From assembly GCA_947378425.1 (NCBI GenBank), contig CANCJV010000004.1:1-64000 (forward strand): a DNA stretch of 64,000 bases, given 5' to 3'. Position 1 is the stretch's first letter. Each line of letters starts with the position of its first letter. A program made the position numbers and the translations under genes. The DNA is from Synechococcaceae cyanobacterium (GTDB taxonomy: Bacteria; Cyanobacteriota; Cyanobacteriia; PCC-6307; Cyanobiaceae). A model generated the notes under the pieces. The model ran no database searches. It was not told the DNA's origin and saw nothing but the letters and a program-made list of their open reading frames with translations. Below are positions 39,455 to 59,164 of this stretch, in pieces.

Positions 39455-40417
39455 CTAACCAGCCGACTCCAGCAGGTTGATCCGATACAGCACGTCCTCA
39501 AGTGCCGCAGCAGCTGTGATGGCGCTGTAGCGCTGGGGGTTGGCCGGGGTGCAGCAGCTGGCCAGGGGGGAGAGCACCGTCCAGGGTCGGGGATGGCAGA
39601 ACTGCACAACGCTGTAGCGCTCGTCACTCGCCCCAGAAGCCGCCACCACCCGATGCCAGCCCGCCGGGATCAACCCGTTGCTGAGCCGCTCCAGCATCAG
39701 ACCGGTGTTGATGATGACGCGCCCCTGGGGCGGCACAGCCTCGACCCAGCGGCCATCCACCCGCACCTGCAGCCCGGCGGCGGTGGCCCTTGGCAAGGCC
39801 GTGATCAGATTGATGTCAGCGTGAGCCGCGGCCCAGACGTGGCCCATCGCCGGAGCTCCCGCCATGGGCGGATAGCGGATCGCCCGGGTCAGGGTCGGGG
39901 CCTCGGCTGTCATCTCATCGAAGAAGATTTCGGCGACGCCAAGGGTGAGCGCAATGATGCGGAGAAAGCGGCGTTGCAGGGCTGCCACCGCCTGGTGAAA
40001 GGCGACCAGAACCGCCGTGATCCCCGGCACCACCTCCTCCGGCAGCAGCTGCTCGGGGTAGTTGCTCGGATAGTGCCGGCGAAGGGGATGGGCTGACGGA
40101 ATCGGCACGGACCAGTTGAGCATCTCCTTCCAGTCCGCCTGGAGGCTGCCGGCCGCCGTTTCCACCAGCAATCCGGTGTATCCGGTCTGGCCATGGGCTC
40201 CAGGGGCCACGAAGCGCTGCTTGATCGACGGCTCCAGTGAGAAGAAGCGAGCCAACAGGCCATAGGCCGTATCGAGCAGATCCTCCGGCAGATCACAGCG
40301 GGTGTAGACAAAACCCGTCTGCAGACTGCGTCTTACCCCGTCGACCACTGCGGCCCGGTTGGCCTCGCCGCCGCGCTCGAAGGCCAGCAGATCGATATCG
40401 AGAATGGAGCTCGTCAT
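39455..40417 (-). CDS. Fe(II)/2-oxoglutarate oxygenase, isopenicillin N synthase-like
   Basis: ATG 40417 gives 320 residues. The N-terminal part matches the plant-type/IPNS layout (DGVRRSLQTGFVYTR). The iron triad is visible as H-x-D in AAHADINLITALP, with the distal His in GWHRVVAA. The 2OG-binding R-x-S motif is in ERYSVVQF. Relatives hydroxylate or desaturate small molecules; the substrate is unknown. The 320-base upstream region contains no other gene on this strand. Confidence 0.85.
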   Translation of the reverse strand: MTSSILDIDLLAFERGGEANRAAVVDGVRRSLQTGFVYTRCDLPEDLLDTAYGLLARFFSLEPSIKQRFVAPGAHGQTGYTGLLVETAAGSLQADWKEMLNWSVPIPSAHPLRRHYPSNYPEQLLPEEVVPGITAVLVAFHQAVAALQRRFLRIIALTLGVAEIFFDEMTAEAPTLTRAIRYPPMAGAPAMGHVWAAAHADINLITALPRATAAGLQVRVDGRWVEAVPPQGRVIINTGLMLERLSNGLIPAGWHRVVAASGASDERYSVVQFCHPRPWTVLSPLASCCTPANPQRYSAITAAAALEDVLYRINLLESAG

Positions 40418-40669
40418 ACAGAAATGTGCTGCAGCCCATGGGCTGGTGTCCGGGGGTCGCCGGCATGCCGCGCTCTGGAGACTAGAGGCCCGAAGGGCGT
40501 CGATCCCGGGAATCTTCGTCATGGGTCCCGGTGACGAACACGAGACCTGCGCCAGCAGCAGCCTGCTGTCGATCCCCGGTGACGGCGCTTGAACCCCGCG
40601 TCCCACCAGTCGCCCACCCCAGGACCCCAGAAGGCCCCGCCCAGGAGCCAATTCCACCCTGGTCAGACC

Positions 40670-40691
40670 AGTACAGAAGTACTAATATTTA
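40670..40691 (+). promoter_or_regulatory. LexA-box-like palindrome over a promoter
   Basis: AGTACAGAAGTACT (40670-40683) is a perfect 5-base inverted repeat with a 4-base spacer and fits the reported cyanobacterial LexA pattern RGTACNNNDGTWCB at every position. A -10-like TATTTA lies at 40686-40691. The next start codon, of the DUF3104-like gene, is 54 bases downstream. LexA in some cyanobacteria regulates genes other than DNA repair. Confidence 0.6.
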
Positions 40692-40736
40692 TACGTACCA
40701 TCCCTGGCGACCGCTCCTGCGCGGCGTCTGTCTGCC

Positions 40737-41003
40737 ATGGCTCCCGGACAGATTGATCCAGCGGTCGCCCCCCTGAGGCTGGCCAATCCCCACCGCTTCC
40801 GCGACGTGCGCCGCGGTCACCTGGCCGTTGTGGCCATGGCTGGCCGTCCCTGGTTCATCGGCCGGGTCTGCGAGGTGAGTTGTCGCCAGGGAAGCCGCAC
40901 CCCCGGCTTCGTCAGGGTGATCAACATCGACAGCGGCGAACCGGAACGGGTGCCTGCCCCCTGGATCGTCGAACTGATGTCGGAGCGGGGCCTGCTGCCC
41001 TGA
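40737..41003 (+). CDS. DUF3104-like small protein
   Basis: 88 residues. The pattern VRRGHLAVVAMAGRPWFIGRV, then SRTPGFVRVINIDSGEPERVPA, matches the layout of DUF3104 proteins, which are largely restricted to picocyanobacteria: an SH3-like small beta protein with W-x-x-G-x-V and x-V-x-N-V-D-T-G segments. Function unknown. It is the first gene after the LexA-like box and may be transcribed with the rhomboid gene 50 bases downstream. Confidence 0.6.
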   Translation: MAPGQIDPAVAPLRLANPHRFRDVRRGHLAVVAMAGRPWFIGRVCEVSCRQGSRTPGFVRVINIDSGEPERVPAPWIVELMSERGLLP

Positions 41004-41052
41004 GCCCTCCAGACTGGTCATCACCACTCCACGGCGAGCTGCCAGCCGGCGC

Positions 41053-41601
41053 ATGATCAAACTGCCGTCCTCCCTGGCCCTGCCTCCATTGCTCCTGGCG
41101 ATCGCCTGGGGCCAGGAACTGATCGACCAGTTCATCTTTGCCGGTCACTGGAATCTGGCGATGGTGCCGGGGGGATCCGTCCTTGGCGTTCTGACCGCCC
41201 CGTTCAGTCACGCTGGCTTCGGCCATCTGATCAGCAACAGTCTCTGGTTCCTGCCCCTCTCCTGGCTGGTGCTGGCCAAGGGGCGACGCGATTACCTGGC
41301 GGTCTGGATCGGGGTCTATGCCACCGCCCTTCCGGTCTGGTTGTTCTGGCCGGTGGGCAGCCATGGCCTCTCCGGGGTGATCTATGGCCTGCTCGGGTAT
41401 CTGCTGGTCATCGGCTGGCTGGAGAAGCGGCCGCTGTCCCTGCTGTTGTCCCTCGGTTGCCTGGGGCTCTACGGCGGGCTGTTGCCAGCGCTGTTGCCCT
41501 TCTTCAGCCCTGCCGGCGTCAGCTGGATCGGCCATGCCTCCGGCTTTGCCGGCGGGGTGCTGGCTGCCCTGGCGATCCATCGCGAGCCCACCCCCGCCTG
41601 A
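41053..41601 (+). CDS. Rhomboid-family intramembrane serine protease
   Basis: 182 residues with six predicted helices. Catalytic features are the helix 2 His-Asn segment GHLISNSLW, the nucleophile Ser in GLSGVIYGLLGY (G-x-S-G), and the catalytic His in WIGHASGFAGG. It is a short rhomboid without extra domains. It is followed 16 bases later by the aspartic protease-like gene. Confidence 0.88.
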   Translation: MIKLPSSLALPPLLLAIAWGQELIDQFIFAGHWNLAMVPGGSVLGVLTAPFSHAGFGHLISNSLWFLPLSWLVLAKGRRDYLAVWIGVYATALPVWLFWPVGSHGLSGVIYGLLGYLLVIGWLEKRPLSLLLSLGCLGLYGGLLPALLPFFSPAGVSWIGHASGFAGGVLAALAIHREPTPA

Positions 41602-41616
41602 GTCACCACCCTCCCC

Positions 41617-42597
41617 ATGCCCCCGCCCCTGCTGCTCGCCCTCGTCACCGCCCTGATCCAACTCAAAGGCGCGCCGCTGTCGGGGGGGACCCTCCGCGGC
41701 AGCGCCTCGATCCACCTCGAGCGAGCCAATGGCGGTGATACGCCCGTGTTGACCATGGCCAGTCCTGGCGGCGTCGTGCGGCTGCTGCTCGACAGCGGCG
41801 CCTCCTCGACCATGGTGACCCCGGAGCTGGCCCAGCGCCTGGGACTTCCCAGCCAGGCTCTCACCGACCACGGGATTGAGCTGGCCGGAGGCGGTTCAGG
41901 CTGCGCCGCCCTTCAGCCACGTCGCACCCGCCTGCCCAAGCTGGAGCTGCGCAGCGAGGGGCAACAGGGTTCACTGCGACTGAGCGGTGTCGAGGCCCTG
42001 GTGATGCCGGTGGCGGCGCTGCCCACGGGGATTGATGGCGTTCTGGGAATCCCGAGCCTGCGCCAGGTACCGCTATGGATCGATCCCCAGCGCAACCGGC
42101 TTGCCCTGGGGCCAGCGGCCCTGAGAGCGGCGCGGGCCGCTCCTCCCAGCGCCTCGAGCCTCACGATCCCGTTGCATTGGCGGCGCGGTGTGCCGCTGTT
42201 GGAGCTCCACAGCCCGGGGGCAGTCGTGCCTGCCTTGGCGGACACCGGTGCCGAGGGACTGTTCGTCAGTCCGGCCCTGGCGGCCCGGCTGCAGGCCCTC
42301 GGCCCCGCCGAGCCGCTGCGCCTGACTGGTTTCTGTGGCGAGCAGGCGGTGGAGCTGCGGCGCTACGGAAGCCTGTCGCTTGGCGACCTGCCTCTGGCCG
42401 ACCCGTCGCTCAGCACCCTGGCTCTGGGCGATGGGGGCAGGAACCGAGCCCAGCCAACGGCTGTGGCGGCGATCCGCATCGAGAATCCGATTTTCGCTCA
42501 GCTGGGGGTTGAGGCGATCGTCGGCCAGGAACTGCTGCGCAGCCGTCCCCAGCTCTGGCGGCTGGAGAGCCAACCACCCCGGCTCGAGTTGCGATGA
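41617..42597 (+). CDS. Retropepsin-like aspartic protease with two D-(S/T)-G motifs
   Basis: 326 residues. The catalytic-type motif LLLDSGASSTMV is at about residue 65 and the second, ALADTGAEGLFV, at about 207, each followed by the flap-like pattern and a GIDGVLGIPSLRQVPLWID or VGQELL segment. This is the two-lobe arrangement of a pepsin-like single-chain enzyme, made from two retropepsin folds. The N-terminus LLLALVTALI may be a weak signal anchor. Its stop overlaps the next ATG (ATGA). Confidence 0.8.
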   Translation: MPPPLLLALVTALIQLKGAPLSGGTLRGSASIHLERANGGDTPVLTMASPGGVVRLLLDSGASSTMVTPELAQRLGLPSQALTDHGIELAGGGSGCAALQPRRTRLPKLELRSEGQQGSLRLSGVEALVMPVAALPTGIDGVLGIPSLRQVPLWIDPQRNRLALGPAALRAARAAPPSASSLTIPLHWRRGVPLLELHSPGAVVPALADTGAEGLFVSPALAARLQALGPAEPLRLTGFCGEQAVELRRYGSLSLGDLPLADPSLSTLALGDGGRNRAQPTAVAAIRIENPIFAQLGVEAIVGQELLRSRPQLWRLESQPPRLELR

Positions 42598-43157
42598 CCG
42601 CCCTCACCCTGCTGGGTTCCCGCCTCGTCGAGGCCCTGACGGCACCCTTCGCTGTGGCACAACTGGCAATCGTGCTGGGCCTGTTCGGACTCTTCGGGCT
42701 GCTGGCATTCCCCCTGGGACTGGCGTCGGGTCTGCTCAGGCCCCCTTGGCGCCAACTGACAGCGAAGGCCTGGTTGCGGCTGGGGGCCAGCCTGGTGCTG
42801 ATGCCGGCGTTGCTGGAGGAGGGGCTGTTCCGGGTGCTGCTGCTGCCCAGGCGAGTGCTGGAGCTGGAGCCACTGGGCCAGGCGGGCTGGGTCGCCCTGA
42901 GTGTGGGCTTGTTTGTGCTCTATCACCCGGTATCCGGTTGGCTCTGGTATCCGGAGGGCCGTTGGCTGTTTCAGCAGGGCCGCTTTCTGGTGCCCTGCAG
43001 TCTGCTCGGGTTGGTGTGTGTGATCGCCTACGCCTGCACCGGATCGCTGTGGGCTCCGATGTTGCTTCACTGGATCACGCTGTTGATCTGGCTGGGGCCC
43101 TGTGACGGCGGCAGGGATCTCACGGATAGGCATTCGGCACGAAGAACTGCTCGTTGA
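42594..43157 (+). CDS. CPBP-family intramembrane glutamic protease (CAAX-protease-like)
   Basis: 187 residues with four or five helices. The family motifs are E-E-x-x-x-R in LLEEGLFRVLLL, H in VLYHPVSGW, and H in APMLLHWITLLIW. Bacterial CPBP proteins are linked to peptide maturation and immunity, but most lack a known substrate. It is coupled to the aspartic protease gene. Its 3' end overlaps the convergent ppk2 gene by 38 bases. Confidence 0.8.
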   Translation: MTALTLLGSRLVEALTAPFAVAQLAIVLGLFGLFGLLAFPLGLASGLLRPPWRQLTAKAWLRLGASLVLMPALLEEGLFRVLLLPRRVLELEPLGQAGWVALSVGLFVLYHPVSGWLWYPEGRWLFQQGRFLVPCSLLGLVCVIAYACTGSLWAPMLLHWITLLIWLGPCDGGRDLTDRHSARRTAR

Positions 43158-44043
43158 GCGGCGGCCGCTGATAGTCCCCGCCACTGCGGCGCGGCGGCAA
43201 CTTGATCGCCTTGGGGGTCATGTCTTCGTAGGGCACCTTGGAGAGCAGATGGCGAATGCAATTGAGGCGGGCTCGTCGTTTGTCATCGGCCTCAACGGTG
43301 AACCAGGGAGCCTCGGGAATGTTGGTGTGGGCAAACATCTCGTCCTTGGCTCTCGAGAATTCCACCCAACGATCGCGGGATTCGAGATCCATCGGGCTGA
43401 GCTTCCAGCGCCGGGCGGGATCCTTGAGCCGGGAGCGAAAACGCAGTTCCTGCTCTTCATCGCTGACCGAAAACCAGTACTTGATCAGGGTGATGCCACT
43501 GCGCACGAGCATGCGCTCGAATTCAGGAGAGGACTGCAGAAACTCGTCCACCTGGGCAGATGTGCAGAATCCCATCACCTTTTCGACGCCAGCCCGATTA
43601 TACCAGCTTCGATCAAAGATGACGATTTCACCAGCAGCTGGGAAATGCTCCACGTAGCGCTGGAAATACCATTGGCTTTTCTGCTGATCCGAAGGGGTGC
43701 CCAGGGCCACCACGTTGCAGCCGCGGGGATTGAGCGGCTCGGTGATGCGTTTGATCGTGCCCCCCTTGCCGGCCGCGTCGCGGCCTTCAAAGATCACAAT
43801 CAGGCGATAGCCCGTATCTTTGATCCAGTACTGCATCTTGACCAGTTCAACCTGGAGCCGGATCAGTTCCTTCTCGTAGAGATGGCGATCCATCCGGAAG
43901 GAGCCATCACTGGGACCTTCCCTGCTCAGATCTTCGAGGGTGGCGGAGGGCTGGTACTGCTCGCCATTGGCTTCATTTCTGCCGTTGCTGTGGGTAGCCG
44001 TTGCTGCCTTGGCGTGTTTCTGGCCTGACTTGTGCTTGCCCAT
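43120..44043 (-). CDS. ppk2: Polyphosphate kinase 2
   Basis: Transfers phosphate between polyphosphate and nucleotides. 307 residues with a Lys/Gly-rich N-terminal tail, then the PPK2 core: Walker A FEGRDAAGKGG, the lid and Walker B motif DRSWYNRAG, then RFRSRLKDPARRWKLSPMD. The single-domain length fits class I/III PPK2. Its stop region overlaps the convergent CPBP gene. Confidence 0.93.
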   Translation of the reverse strand: MGKHKSGQKHAKAATATHSNGRNEANGEQYQPSATLEDLSREGPSDGSFRMDRHLYEKELIRLQVELVKMQYWIKDTGYRLIVIFEGRDAAGKGGTIKRITEPLNPRGCNVVALGTPSDQQKSQWYFQRYVEHFPAAGEIVIFDRSWYNRAGVEKVMGFCTSAQVDEFLQSSPEFERMLVRSGITLIKYWFSVSDEEQELRFRSRLKDPARRWKLSPMDLESRDRWVEFSRAKDEMFAHTNIPEAPWFTVEADDKRRARLNCIRHLLSKVPYEDMTPKAIKLPPRRSGGDYQRPPLNEQFFVPNAYP

Positions 44044-44080
44044 GGCGTCGCCGGTTCAGGAGATTCACGCCAAGCCTGGC

Positions 44081-44245
44081 TCAGATCAAGGCCACAGGCA
44101 CACCCACGGGGCCCCACTGGGCGATCAGCTGCTCCATCCGCACCAACTGATAGCGGCTCTGCTCGTTGGGTTCACTGACGTAGTGACGGCGGAGAGAGTC
44201 CAGCTCAAGCTGCAGCGCAGTCAGCACAGGGTGGTTCTCGTCCAT
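44081..44245 (-). CDS. Small protein, unknown (54 residues)
   Basis: ATG 44245 is preceded by AAGGAGGT (44248-44255), an almost complete Shine-Dalgarno sequence, though only 2 bases before the ATG. The product is a mostly helical acidic/basic protein (ENHPVLTALQLELDSLRRHY, EQSRYQLVRMEQLIAQ). The coding phase is consistent to TGA 44081. It lies upstream of ppk2 on the same strand. No family was recognised. Confidence 0.65.
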   Translation of the reverse strand: MDENHPVLTALQLELDSLRRHYVSEPNEQSRYQLVRMEQLIAQWGPVGVPVALI

Positions 44246-56995: not shown

Positions 56996-59164
56996 GTGCC
57001 CAGCCCCCAACGCCTCGCAGTTCTGCAGACGATCCAGCAACGCCGGCCCATCGCCACCGCGCCGATCCAGAAACTCGATGAGCTCTGGGCCAGCGACGTC
57101 TTCACGCTGGATCGCATGAAGGCGGCCCTGCCCAAGGACATCTTCAAATCGGTGCAGCGCACCATCAAGGAGGGCAGCAAGCTCGATGTCTCGGTGGCCA
57201 ATGTGGTCGCTCAGGCCATGAAGGAGTGGGCCACCGGTCGGGGAGCCCTCTACTACTCCCACGTTTTTTACCCTCTCACCAACCTCACCGCTGAGAAGCA
57301 CGACGGCTTCATTGCTCCCCAAGGCGATGGCAGCGCCATTGCCGAGTTCACCGGCAAGCTACTGGTGCAGGGGGAACCCGATGGTTCCTCCTTCCCCAAC
57401 GGCGGTATCCGTTCCACATTCGAGGCCCGGGGCTACACGGCCTGGGACGTCACCAGTCCGGCCTATCTGATGGAGACACCGAACGGTGTCACCCTCTGCA
57501 TCCCCACGGTGTTCGTCTCCTGGACCGGCGAGGCCCTCGACCACAAGACTCCCCTGCTGCGTTCGATCGCCGCCGTCAACAAACAGGCCCAGCGGCTGTT
57601 GCGTCTGCTGGGTGAAGTGGATGTGGCTCCGGTGAACTCCAGCTGCGGTGCCGAACAGGAGTACTTCCTGATCGACAGCGCCTATGTGCCGCTGCGCTCC
57701 GATCTGCTGCTGGCGGGACGCACCCTGTTCGGCCGCCCCTCCGCCAAGGGGCAACAGTTCGACGATCACTACTTCGGCGCCATCCCGGAGCGGGTGCAGG
57801 TGTTCATGCAGGACGTGGAGCGCCAGCTCTACAAGCTGGGCATCCCCGCCAAGACCCGCCACAACGAAGTGGCTCCGGGTCAGTTCGAGATCGCGCCGTT
57901 CTTCGAGGCGGCCAACGTGGCCACCGATCACCAGCAGCTCACCATGACCATTCTTCGCAGCACGGCGAAGAAACATGGCCTCTCCTGCCTGCTCCACGAA
58001 AAACCCTTCGCCGGCATCAACGGCTCCGGCAAACACGTCAACTGGTCGATCGGCAACGCCACCCAGGGCAATCTGCTCGATCCTGGCCACACCCCCCACG
58101 ACAATCTGCAGTTCCTGTTGTTCTGCGGTGCCGTCATCCGCGGCGTTCATCTTTACGGGCCGCTGTTGCGGGCAGCGATCGCCACCGCCAGCAACGATCA
58201 CCGCCTGGGGGCCAATGAGGCGCCGCCAGCGATCATCTCGGTCTATCTGGGCAGCCAGCTCGAAGATGTCTTCAACCAGATTCGCGAAGGGCGTCTCACC
58301 GATTCAACCATCGGCGGCATCATGGATTTCGGTGTAGACACCCTGCCCGAATTCCCCAAGGATGCCGGCGATCGCAACCGCACCTCGCCCTTCGCTTTCA
58401 CCGGCAACCGCTTCGAATTCCGCGCTGTGGGTTCCGGCCAGACGGTGGCCGGTCCCTTGGTGGTGCTCAACACCGTGCTGGCTGACGCCCTGGGCTGGGT
58501 GGCCGAACAGCTGGAGGCCAGGGTGGCGGCGGGCAGCTCCGTGGAGAGCGGCGCCCTCGCGGTCCTGCAGGATGTGATGAACCAACATGGTGCCGTCGTT
58601 TTCGGCGGCAATGGCTACTCCGAGGAGTGGCATCGCCTGGCCGTCGAAGAGCGGGGTCTGGAGAATCTGCGCACCACCGCCGATGCCCTGCCGGTGCTGA
58701 AGCGCGACAACATCCGCGACCTGTTCTCCCGCACCGGAGTGCTCACGCCGGTGGAGCTGGAAAGCCGTTTCGAGGTCTGCGCCGAGCAGTACATCCTGGC
58801 CATTGAAGTCGAAGCCAAGTTGGCGGTCCAGATTGCCCGCACTCAGATCTACCCAGCAGCCCTGCGCTATCTGGGGGAACTGGCAGGCTCGCTGCAACTG
58901 CAGAGCTCCATGGGCCTGCCCGTCTCACCGGAAACCTCCCAACACGTGGCCGCCTACGTCCAGCAGCTCAACAATGTCTGCAGCGAACTCCAGGCCGCTC
59001 TGGATGCGGCTCCCCACGGCACCGATGCCCATCTGCGCTATAGCGCCGACAGCATCGTGCCGCTGATGGATCAGCTTCGGGTGGCGGTCGATGGCCTTGA
59101 GGCCCTGGTCGACGACAATCTCTGGCCGCTGCCCACCTACCAGGAGATGTTGTTCATTCGCTGA
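56996..59164 (+). CDS. glnN: Type III glutamine synthetase
   Basis: Assimilates ammonium into glutamine; GSIII is a large dodecameric enzyme. GTG 56996 gives 722 residues, the usual length, and starts [16 protein letters not shown], as many GlnN proteins do. Conserved blocks are [58 protein letters not shown], and [20 protein letters not shown]. In cyanobacteria glnN is normally induced under nitrogen limitation. The leader hairpin lies just upstream. Confidence 0.95.

Follow-up and report, generated by a model that had tools for sequence, protein, structure and literature searches.

A run of rhomboid, tandem retropepsin-like and CPBP protease genes as a candidate membrane-surface proteolysis locus in Cyanobiaceae

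In Pseudomonas, the rlo operon encodes a secreted retropepsin-like protease, RloA, together with RloB and RloC, and RloA has been compared with RimB (PMC12239564, in the part of the text available). The likeness to the cyanobacterial locus described here is that a retropepsin-like protease, itself exported, has a genetic link to a membrane protein bearing an extracytoplasmic domain, whereas the rlo partners are, in the same part of that text, an inactive transglutaminase-7TM protein and an ATP-grasp protein rather than intramembrane proteases. Unlike RloA as described there, the cyanobacterial aspartic protease (ASP) carries two lobes in one chain. This architecture, with one aspartate in each lobe, is shared with the bacterial pepsin homologues of family A1, which the available portion of PMC2761423 reports from seven species without signal peptides, and in which the strings ‘cyanobacter-’, Synechococcus and Cyanobium do not occur. 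Pepsin lobes are described in that portion as alike only in short motifs, while the lobes of ASP align more widely. The enzyme classes of the run are each known; the literature searched, where subscription journals are thinly covered, yielded no case of an exported-type tandem retropepsin linked to a CPBP protease.

The locus lies in a window of 64,000 nucleotides, the whole stretch of DNA analysed, at positions 1 to 64,000 of contig CANCJV010000004.1 of a Synechococcaceae cyanobacterium (assembly GCA_947378425.1). On the forward strand, a rhomboid serine protease (41053-41601, 182 aa; PF01694, 3.6e-15), its Ser/His kept in the alignment, is followed by ASP, a two-lobe (tandem) retropepsin-like protease (41617-42597, 326 aa; PF13650 in two stretches), and by a short CPBP (CAAX/Rce1-like) intramembrane protease with its characteristic motifs (42594-43157, 187 aa; PF02517, 2e-12). 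All three exceed the curated cut-offs in a Pfam search of the window's ORFs, and their catalytic residues are intact, which bears out the tight run of three proteases, two of them from intramembrane families (rhomboid and CPBP), proposed in the original prediction. Its spacing needs one correction, as the ORF coordinates give the 4-base ASP/CPBP overlap (ATGA) as stated and a rhomboid/ASP gap of 15 rather than 16 bases; this spacing, taken by itself, is compatible with an operon. No sigma-70-like site was found 5′ of the run on the forward strand, and no terminator-like site in 40300-44200, where shuffled sequence averages 2.5. The run is bounded upstream by a divergent 2OG-Fe(II) oxygenase gene (39455-40417, reverse strand; PF03171, 3.2e-12) and downstream by a convergent PPK2 polyphosphate kinase gene (43120-44043, reverse strand; PF03976, 1.9e-103). 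The 3′ ends of the CPBP and PPK2 genes overlap by 38 bases (43120-43157), and many of the genus loci read show such an overlap, of 7-38 bases. In the window's clade, dN/dS is 0.03-0.13 for the rhomboid (8 pairs of 5 sequences), 0.24-0.41 for ASP (9 pairs of 6) and 0.33-0.40 for CPBP (9 pairs of 6), computed on part of the possible pairs among five to six sequences per gene. None of these values resembles that of a pseudogene, and by this measure purifying selection acts on each of the three genes in the clade.

The rhomboid scores 56.9 bits against PF01694 (cut-off 22.6), with the GxSG serine and the TM6 histidine both present. The GLSG serine is found in 33/33 aligned homologs (two fragments omitted), and the WIGH histidine is kept in all of these except L150, whose rhomboid gene is frame-broken, giving two separate matches in genome G025. 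The closest NCBIfam model is rhombosortase (TIGR03902), yet the window protein reaches only 28.3 bits against a cut-off of 84; the genome holds two matches to GlyGly-CTERM, the rhombosortase substrate signal, neither above cut-off. On both grounds, assignment to the rhombosortases is rejected.

ASP matches Asp_protease_2 (PF13650) with 71 bits (cut-off 24.3, 1.4e-19) over two stretches that carry the D-T/S-G motif. Its aspartates D59 and D209 are invariant in the 22 aligned genus homologs, which represent every ASP-bearing genus genome but G023 (22 of 23; the C-terminus of L117, from G021, is frame-broken). An AlphaFold (AF2) model of good quality (pLDDT 85.7, pTM 0.85) has as its best structural match a putative endopeptidase of Bacteroides fragilis (PDB 9iy9; Z 21.2, 257 residues at 3.1 Å), at only 16% identity; our literature search found no paper on this structure. 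Pepsins come next (Z about 15), and Foldseek returns tethered HIV protease dimers and the mycobacterial PecA/PE_PGRS-type protease Rv0977 (PDB 4ehc). The sequence match to PecA is weak, its 13.6 bits being far under the curated cut-off of 150 bits, and no PE domain was found. By model and fold comparison, ASP has the family A1 layout of a single two-lobed chain in which each lobe supplies one aspartate, and it is predicted to be a single-chain pepsin-type protease carrying both aspartates. In sequence it leans towards retropepsin-type proteins: no pepsin-family Pfam model is among its matches to E 1, and its ten PDB profile matches up to E 1 are all weak (E at least 0.08) and comprise nine retropepsin-type proteins, one CheY and no pepsin.

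Aligned with each other, the two lobes of the window ASP share 31% identity over 136 residues (E 9e-9, composition correction off), or 50% identity over 34 residues (E 1.9e-7) with the default correction, and the two lobe profiles match over 106 columns (E 2e-8). Within-protein BLASTP of lobe against lobe gives E <0.01 in 25 of 30 ASP homologs, a weaker value in four and no match in one. In a tree of the lobes of these 30 homologs from 11 cyanobacterial families (L232, with a cut lobe 2, was dropped), first and second lobes are split by one branch with 100/99 support, which means that the 11 sampled families share one duplication. A search of the class found ASP matches in 56 of 242 genomes, many of them weak and over one lobe alone, and 23 loci from other families were read (L220-L242). 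Six homologs (L221, L222, L223, L228, L229 and L233) have DTA in place of DTG in lobe 2, which argues against full activity in them. In keeping two recognisably duplicated halves in one chain, the cyanobacterial ASP displays the step proposed for the origin of pepsin, and the family lends itself to studying, in a natural example, how a dimeric protease turns into a single-chain one. Many ASP relatives, including L125, L181 and members of other cyanobacterial families, have N-termini that look signal-like by eye. The hydrophobic N-terminus of the window protein is unusual and very short (MPPPLLLALVTALIQL, with no positive residue), which makes export in the window lineage unsure.

The CPBP protein scores 47.7 bits against PF02517 (cut-off 22.4), with the EExxxR, FxxxH and third-helix histidine motifs present. 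The long CPBP proteins read in genus relatives have 775-844 residues and run from an N-terminal hydrophobic segment through a strongly conserved domain of about 570 residues (the N-domain) to the CPBP bundle; the window protein comprises the CPBP part only, at 187 residues, and the other short forms, frame-broken ones aside, have 183-220. The window protein is a shortened form of these long relatives, and the rest of the long protein has no significant match in the window.

Besides the CPBP models, the long proteins match no Pfam or NCBIfam family that would cover the N-domain, and no solved relative of note was found (best E 0.44). Its AlphaFold model is poor (pLDDT 55, pTM 0.42) and was for that reason excluded from the fold search. 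An invariant histidine and cysteine are seen in the N-domain of the long forms (L132:5922-8246, L124:5126-7657, L168:6867-9419), and its conserved motifs, HxFGGIGG, TGHFA[FY]G and [SN]C..QDS, form an H...H...C series that may resemble circularly permuted papain-like folds. From these motifs, the N-domain is a possible Cys/His hydrolase or transferase. It is also found in proteins of a second type, where it follows a GFSGG-bearing region that resembles an alpha/beta-hydrolase by eye; one such protein (L190:7602-10481) has no Pfam match, and a paralog of this type is encoded on the window's own contig, outside the window (L211:2452-5454, equal to C4:114951-117953). Genes of this second type adjoin a small membrane protein gene and, in one genus (g53), ASP; there, in L216 and L217, the gene after ASP encodes a membrane protein with a weak Yip1 match under the cut-off, and the N-domain paralog comes next.

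Conservation of the run was assessed in 37 genomes of the same genus, including the window's own (G000, 3.63 Mb), with gene calls in relatives from a home-made gene finder; loci were read for 36 of them, and G011 was judged from match positions alone. The rhomboid matches all 37 and ASP 23. Rhomboid, ASP and CPBP are contiguous in 12/37, nine of them clean (G000, G014, G015, G016, G020, G031, G032, G033 and G034) and three with defects, the trio being split across two contigs in G028 and the CPBP frame broken in G007 and G021. Six have rhomboid and ASP without an adjoining CPBP (G001, G005, G018, G029, G035 and G036, the rhomboid being cut by a contig end in G005 and G036). Another 13 have the rhomboid followed by a long CPBP gene with no ASP between them (G002, G003, G004, G006, G008, G009, G011, G012, G013, G017, G022, G024 and G025); in this class, G013 has ASP elsewhere in the genome and G025 is the genome with the frame-broken rhomboid. 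The last six have neither partner beside the rhomboid (G010, G019, G023, G026, G027 and G030). The rhomboid therefore adjoins ASP and/or CPBP in 31/37 genomes, while the upstream genes vary (2OG, c7, c26, c47), and the ASP and CPBP frames overlap by 4-13 bases in 10/10 intact junctions read, by exactly 4 in seven. From the six rhomboid-ASP-only and 13 rhomboid-CPBP-only genomes, it follows that no member of the trio strictly needs the others. These gene-order states cluster by lineage on a rhomboid tree, with seven changes among five states against a shuffled mean of 18; about half of the inner branches of this tree are weak (14 of 29 drawn open), N-termini were trimmed to the last 190 residues, and proteins of 150 aa or fewer (L127, L128) and L139, which the gene finder did not call, are omitted. 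Two side observations concern individual records. In L144 (G027), a short remnant of the N-domain of the long CPBP (residues 248-339, at 63% identity) lies between the rhomboid and PPK2 genes, which suggests loss of the long-CPBP gene there, and L165 (CALPNT020000061.1), titled ‘Bifidobacterium breve’, carries the cyanobacterial protease locus and is probably a mislabelled metagenome bin.

Among 300 genomes of the family, the ASP profile matches 38 and a long CPBP query, which also picks up the N-domain paralog and remnants, matches 62; the two coincide in 33 of the 38 ASP genomes and in 8/9 ASP genera. In 30 of these 33, the match reaches the CPBP part, and in G018, G131 and G278 it covers the N-domain only. 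Fisher tests of the co-occurrence are strong, computed without correction for phylogeny. Positions were taken from these 33 ASP genomes, the remaining five being without a CPBP match. In 18 of the 38, ASP has a same-strand CPBP match no more than 1.5 kb downstream, namely four in the window's genus and 14 of the 27 outside it, the latter in three genera (g58, g71 and g74); in 20/38 no CPBP follows within that distance. The CPBP match of G246 is split in two, and two further ASP genomes carry the N-domain paralog 1.8 kb downstream of ASP. Outside the genus the gap is 50-97 bp in six genomes and about 1.4 kb in eight. In two loci with the wider gap that were read, L181 (6908-8227) and L174 (6899-8236), a membrane protein of about 440 aa with a zinc-ribbon-like end, its zinc-ribbon match being under the Pfam cut-off, is encoded between ASP and the long CPBP. 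L181 comes from Synechococcus sp. WH 5701, and its long-CPBP gene is itself in two pieces.

The rhomboid lies within 25 kb of ASP in 0/24 of the out-of-genus ASP genomes with both positions listed (27 out-of-genus ASP genomes in total). In the genomes compared, no rhomboid-ASP link is seen outside the window's genus, and the ASP-CPBP pair, being adjacent in three other genera where the rhomboid, if listed, lies elsewhere, looks older than the trio. Neither a rhomboid nor a CPBP match was found in the 1.5 kb flanks of the 23 ASP loci from other families. The expectation of synteny in related genomes thus stands in that the run recurs, contiguous in a third of the genus set, and falls short in that its distribution is patchy and other subsets are common; separation in close relatives, which had been named as counting against a functional run, is likewise found in part, both within the genus and outside it. 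In genus g53 (L212-L215), a long CPBP gene lies about 2.6 kb from a rhomboid on the same strand with a 2OG oxygenase gene between them, the block spanning about 5-6 kb on one strand, a hint that the rhomboid/CPBP/2OG neighbourhood may be old.

We put at about 0.5 the probability that the three genes form a small membrane-surface proteolysis locus, belonging to one Cyanobiaceae-type lineage and assembled around the older ASP-CPBP pair. The three proteases would be co-transcribed. ASP would work outside the cytoplasm, cutting exposed parts of membrane or exported proteins, and CPBP, joined in this lineage by the rhomboid, would cut inside the bilayer, so that the three would act in turn, or in place of one another, on overlapping sets of envelope proteins. 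The rhomboid, which matches 200/300 family genomes against 38 for ASP and so shows no dependence on it, would be a more widely kept enzyme with its own job that sits in the locus here. A substrate shared by the proteases of the run is plausible, and the best-supported functional link is that of ASP with CPBP at the membrane surface. This reading is favoured by the adjacency, co-occurrence and overlapping frames of ASP and CPBP, by the adjacency of the rhomboid within the genus, by the signal-like N-termini of ASP relatives and by the LexA comparison given below. It is weakened by the short N-terminus of the window ASP, the 20/38 ASP genomes without a following CPBP, the subsets of the trio, the empty flanks in the 23 other-family loci and the missing sigma-70-like site ahead of the run, as well as by the fact that conservation of a neighbourhood can persist without function. 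The run names candidate partners for the little-studied intramembrane proteases of cyanobacteria.

The original prediction had also suggested that the run may be under a LexA-like promoter; the corresponding rival reading is an operon in which LexA controls a small upstream gene and the three proteases as one transcript. The small gene (40737-41003, forward strand, 88 aa) is preceded by a LexA-type box, AGTACAGAAGTACT (40670-40683, no strand assigned), that fits the pattern RGTACNNNDGTWCB for cyanobacterial LexA boxes (PMC3091678, available part). The window holds three matches to this pattern against 0.08 expected, two of them being the two strands of the 40670 site and the third, at 57652, lying inside a long ORF (56996-59164) and being taken as chance; genome-wide there are 14 matches against 87 for a reversed control, which makes the pattern alone weak. 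Only 49 bases, with no terminator-like site, separate the small gene from the rhomboid, and read-through into the proteases is possible in the window genome. It would not be a conserved control. The small gene was called in 14 genomes. In 12 of them (the window, L119, L120, L132-L138, L141 and L150) the box lies just ahead of its predicted start or overlaps it, and L116 and L118 have a one-mismatch form; the box stays there when opposite-strand genes part the small gene from the rhomboid, as the home-made gene calls have it in 13/13 relatives. G014, which the rhomboid tree places as sister to the window, has the trio without the small gene. The box hence belongs to the small gene and tracks it rather than the rhomboid, conservation in front of the proteases themselves not being observed, and we consider regulation of the whole run by LexA very improbable. 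The small gene is in its own right a candidate SOS gene across the genus, by its kept box. The DUF3104 name given to it does not hold up as a family assignment, as the window protein has no Pfam DUF3104 match and three of four homologs score 11.8-14.5 bits against a cut-off of 27; ‘DUF3104-like’ is used here as a label.

Common descent could by itself have kept three independent proteases in an operon-like slot with no common substrate, and this neighbourhood inertia is a tentative but serious alternative. The families differ widely in prevalence (rhomboid 200, ASP 38 and CPBP/N-domain 62 of 300 genomes), several subsets of the trio exist within the genus, and in none of the 24 out-of-genus ASP genomes with both positions listed is the rhomboid near ASP; inertia accounts less readily for the overlapping ASP and CPBP frames and for the recurrence of the pair in three other genera with different gaps (about 50-97 bp or about 1.4 kb). 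A further possibility is that the true partner of ASP is the N-domain and not CPBP, ASP processing or regulating the N-domain protein and the window lineage using its unlinked paralog at C4:114951-117953. ASP does adjoin the N-domain in two architectures, joined to CPBP and behind the hydrolase-like region, yet the window clade retains CPBP and not the N-domain beside ASP, and the chemistry of the N-domain is read from motifs alone, its model having a pLDDT of 55; we think this partnership unlikely.

Within the proposed membrane-surface locus, ASP may have a switch of its own, an idea we rate as speculative and improbable. By analogy with the retropepsin fold, C96 in lobe 1 and C240 in lobe 2 may sit at the tips of flap-like hairpins able to meet and form a disulfide, which would lock the flaps over the active site until reduction opened them. 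An oxidising compartment would then keep this redox-gated ASP shut, and reduction would let ASP and CPBP start proteolysis at the membrane. In the ASP model, C240 lies at the turn between two lobe-2 strands and C96 in the corresponding part of lobe 1, where the model's confidence is low. The two cysteines are invariant in the 22 genus homologs; among the 30 wider homologs, both are present in 28, exactly one in none, and neither in two, L241 and L242, which are sister rows, so that their absence there probably reflects one loss.
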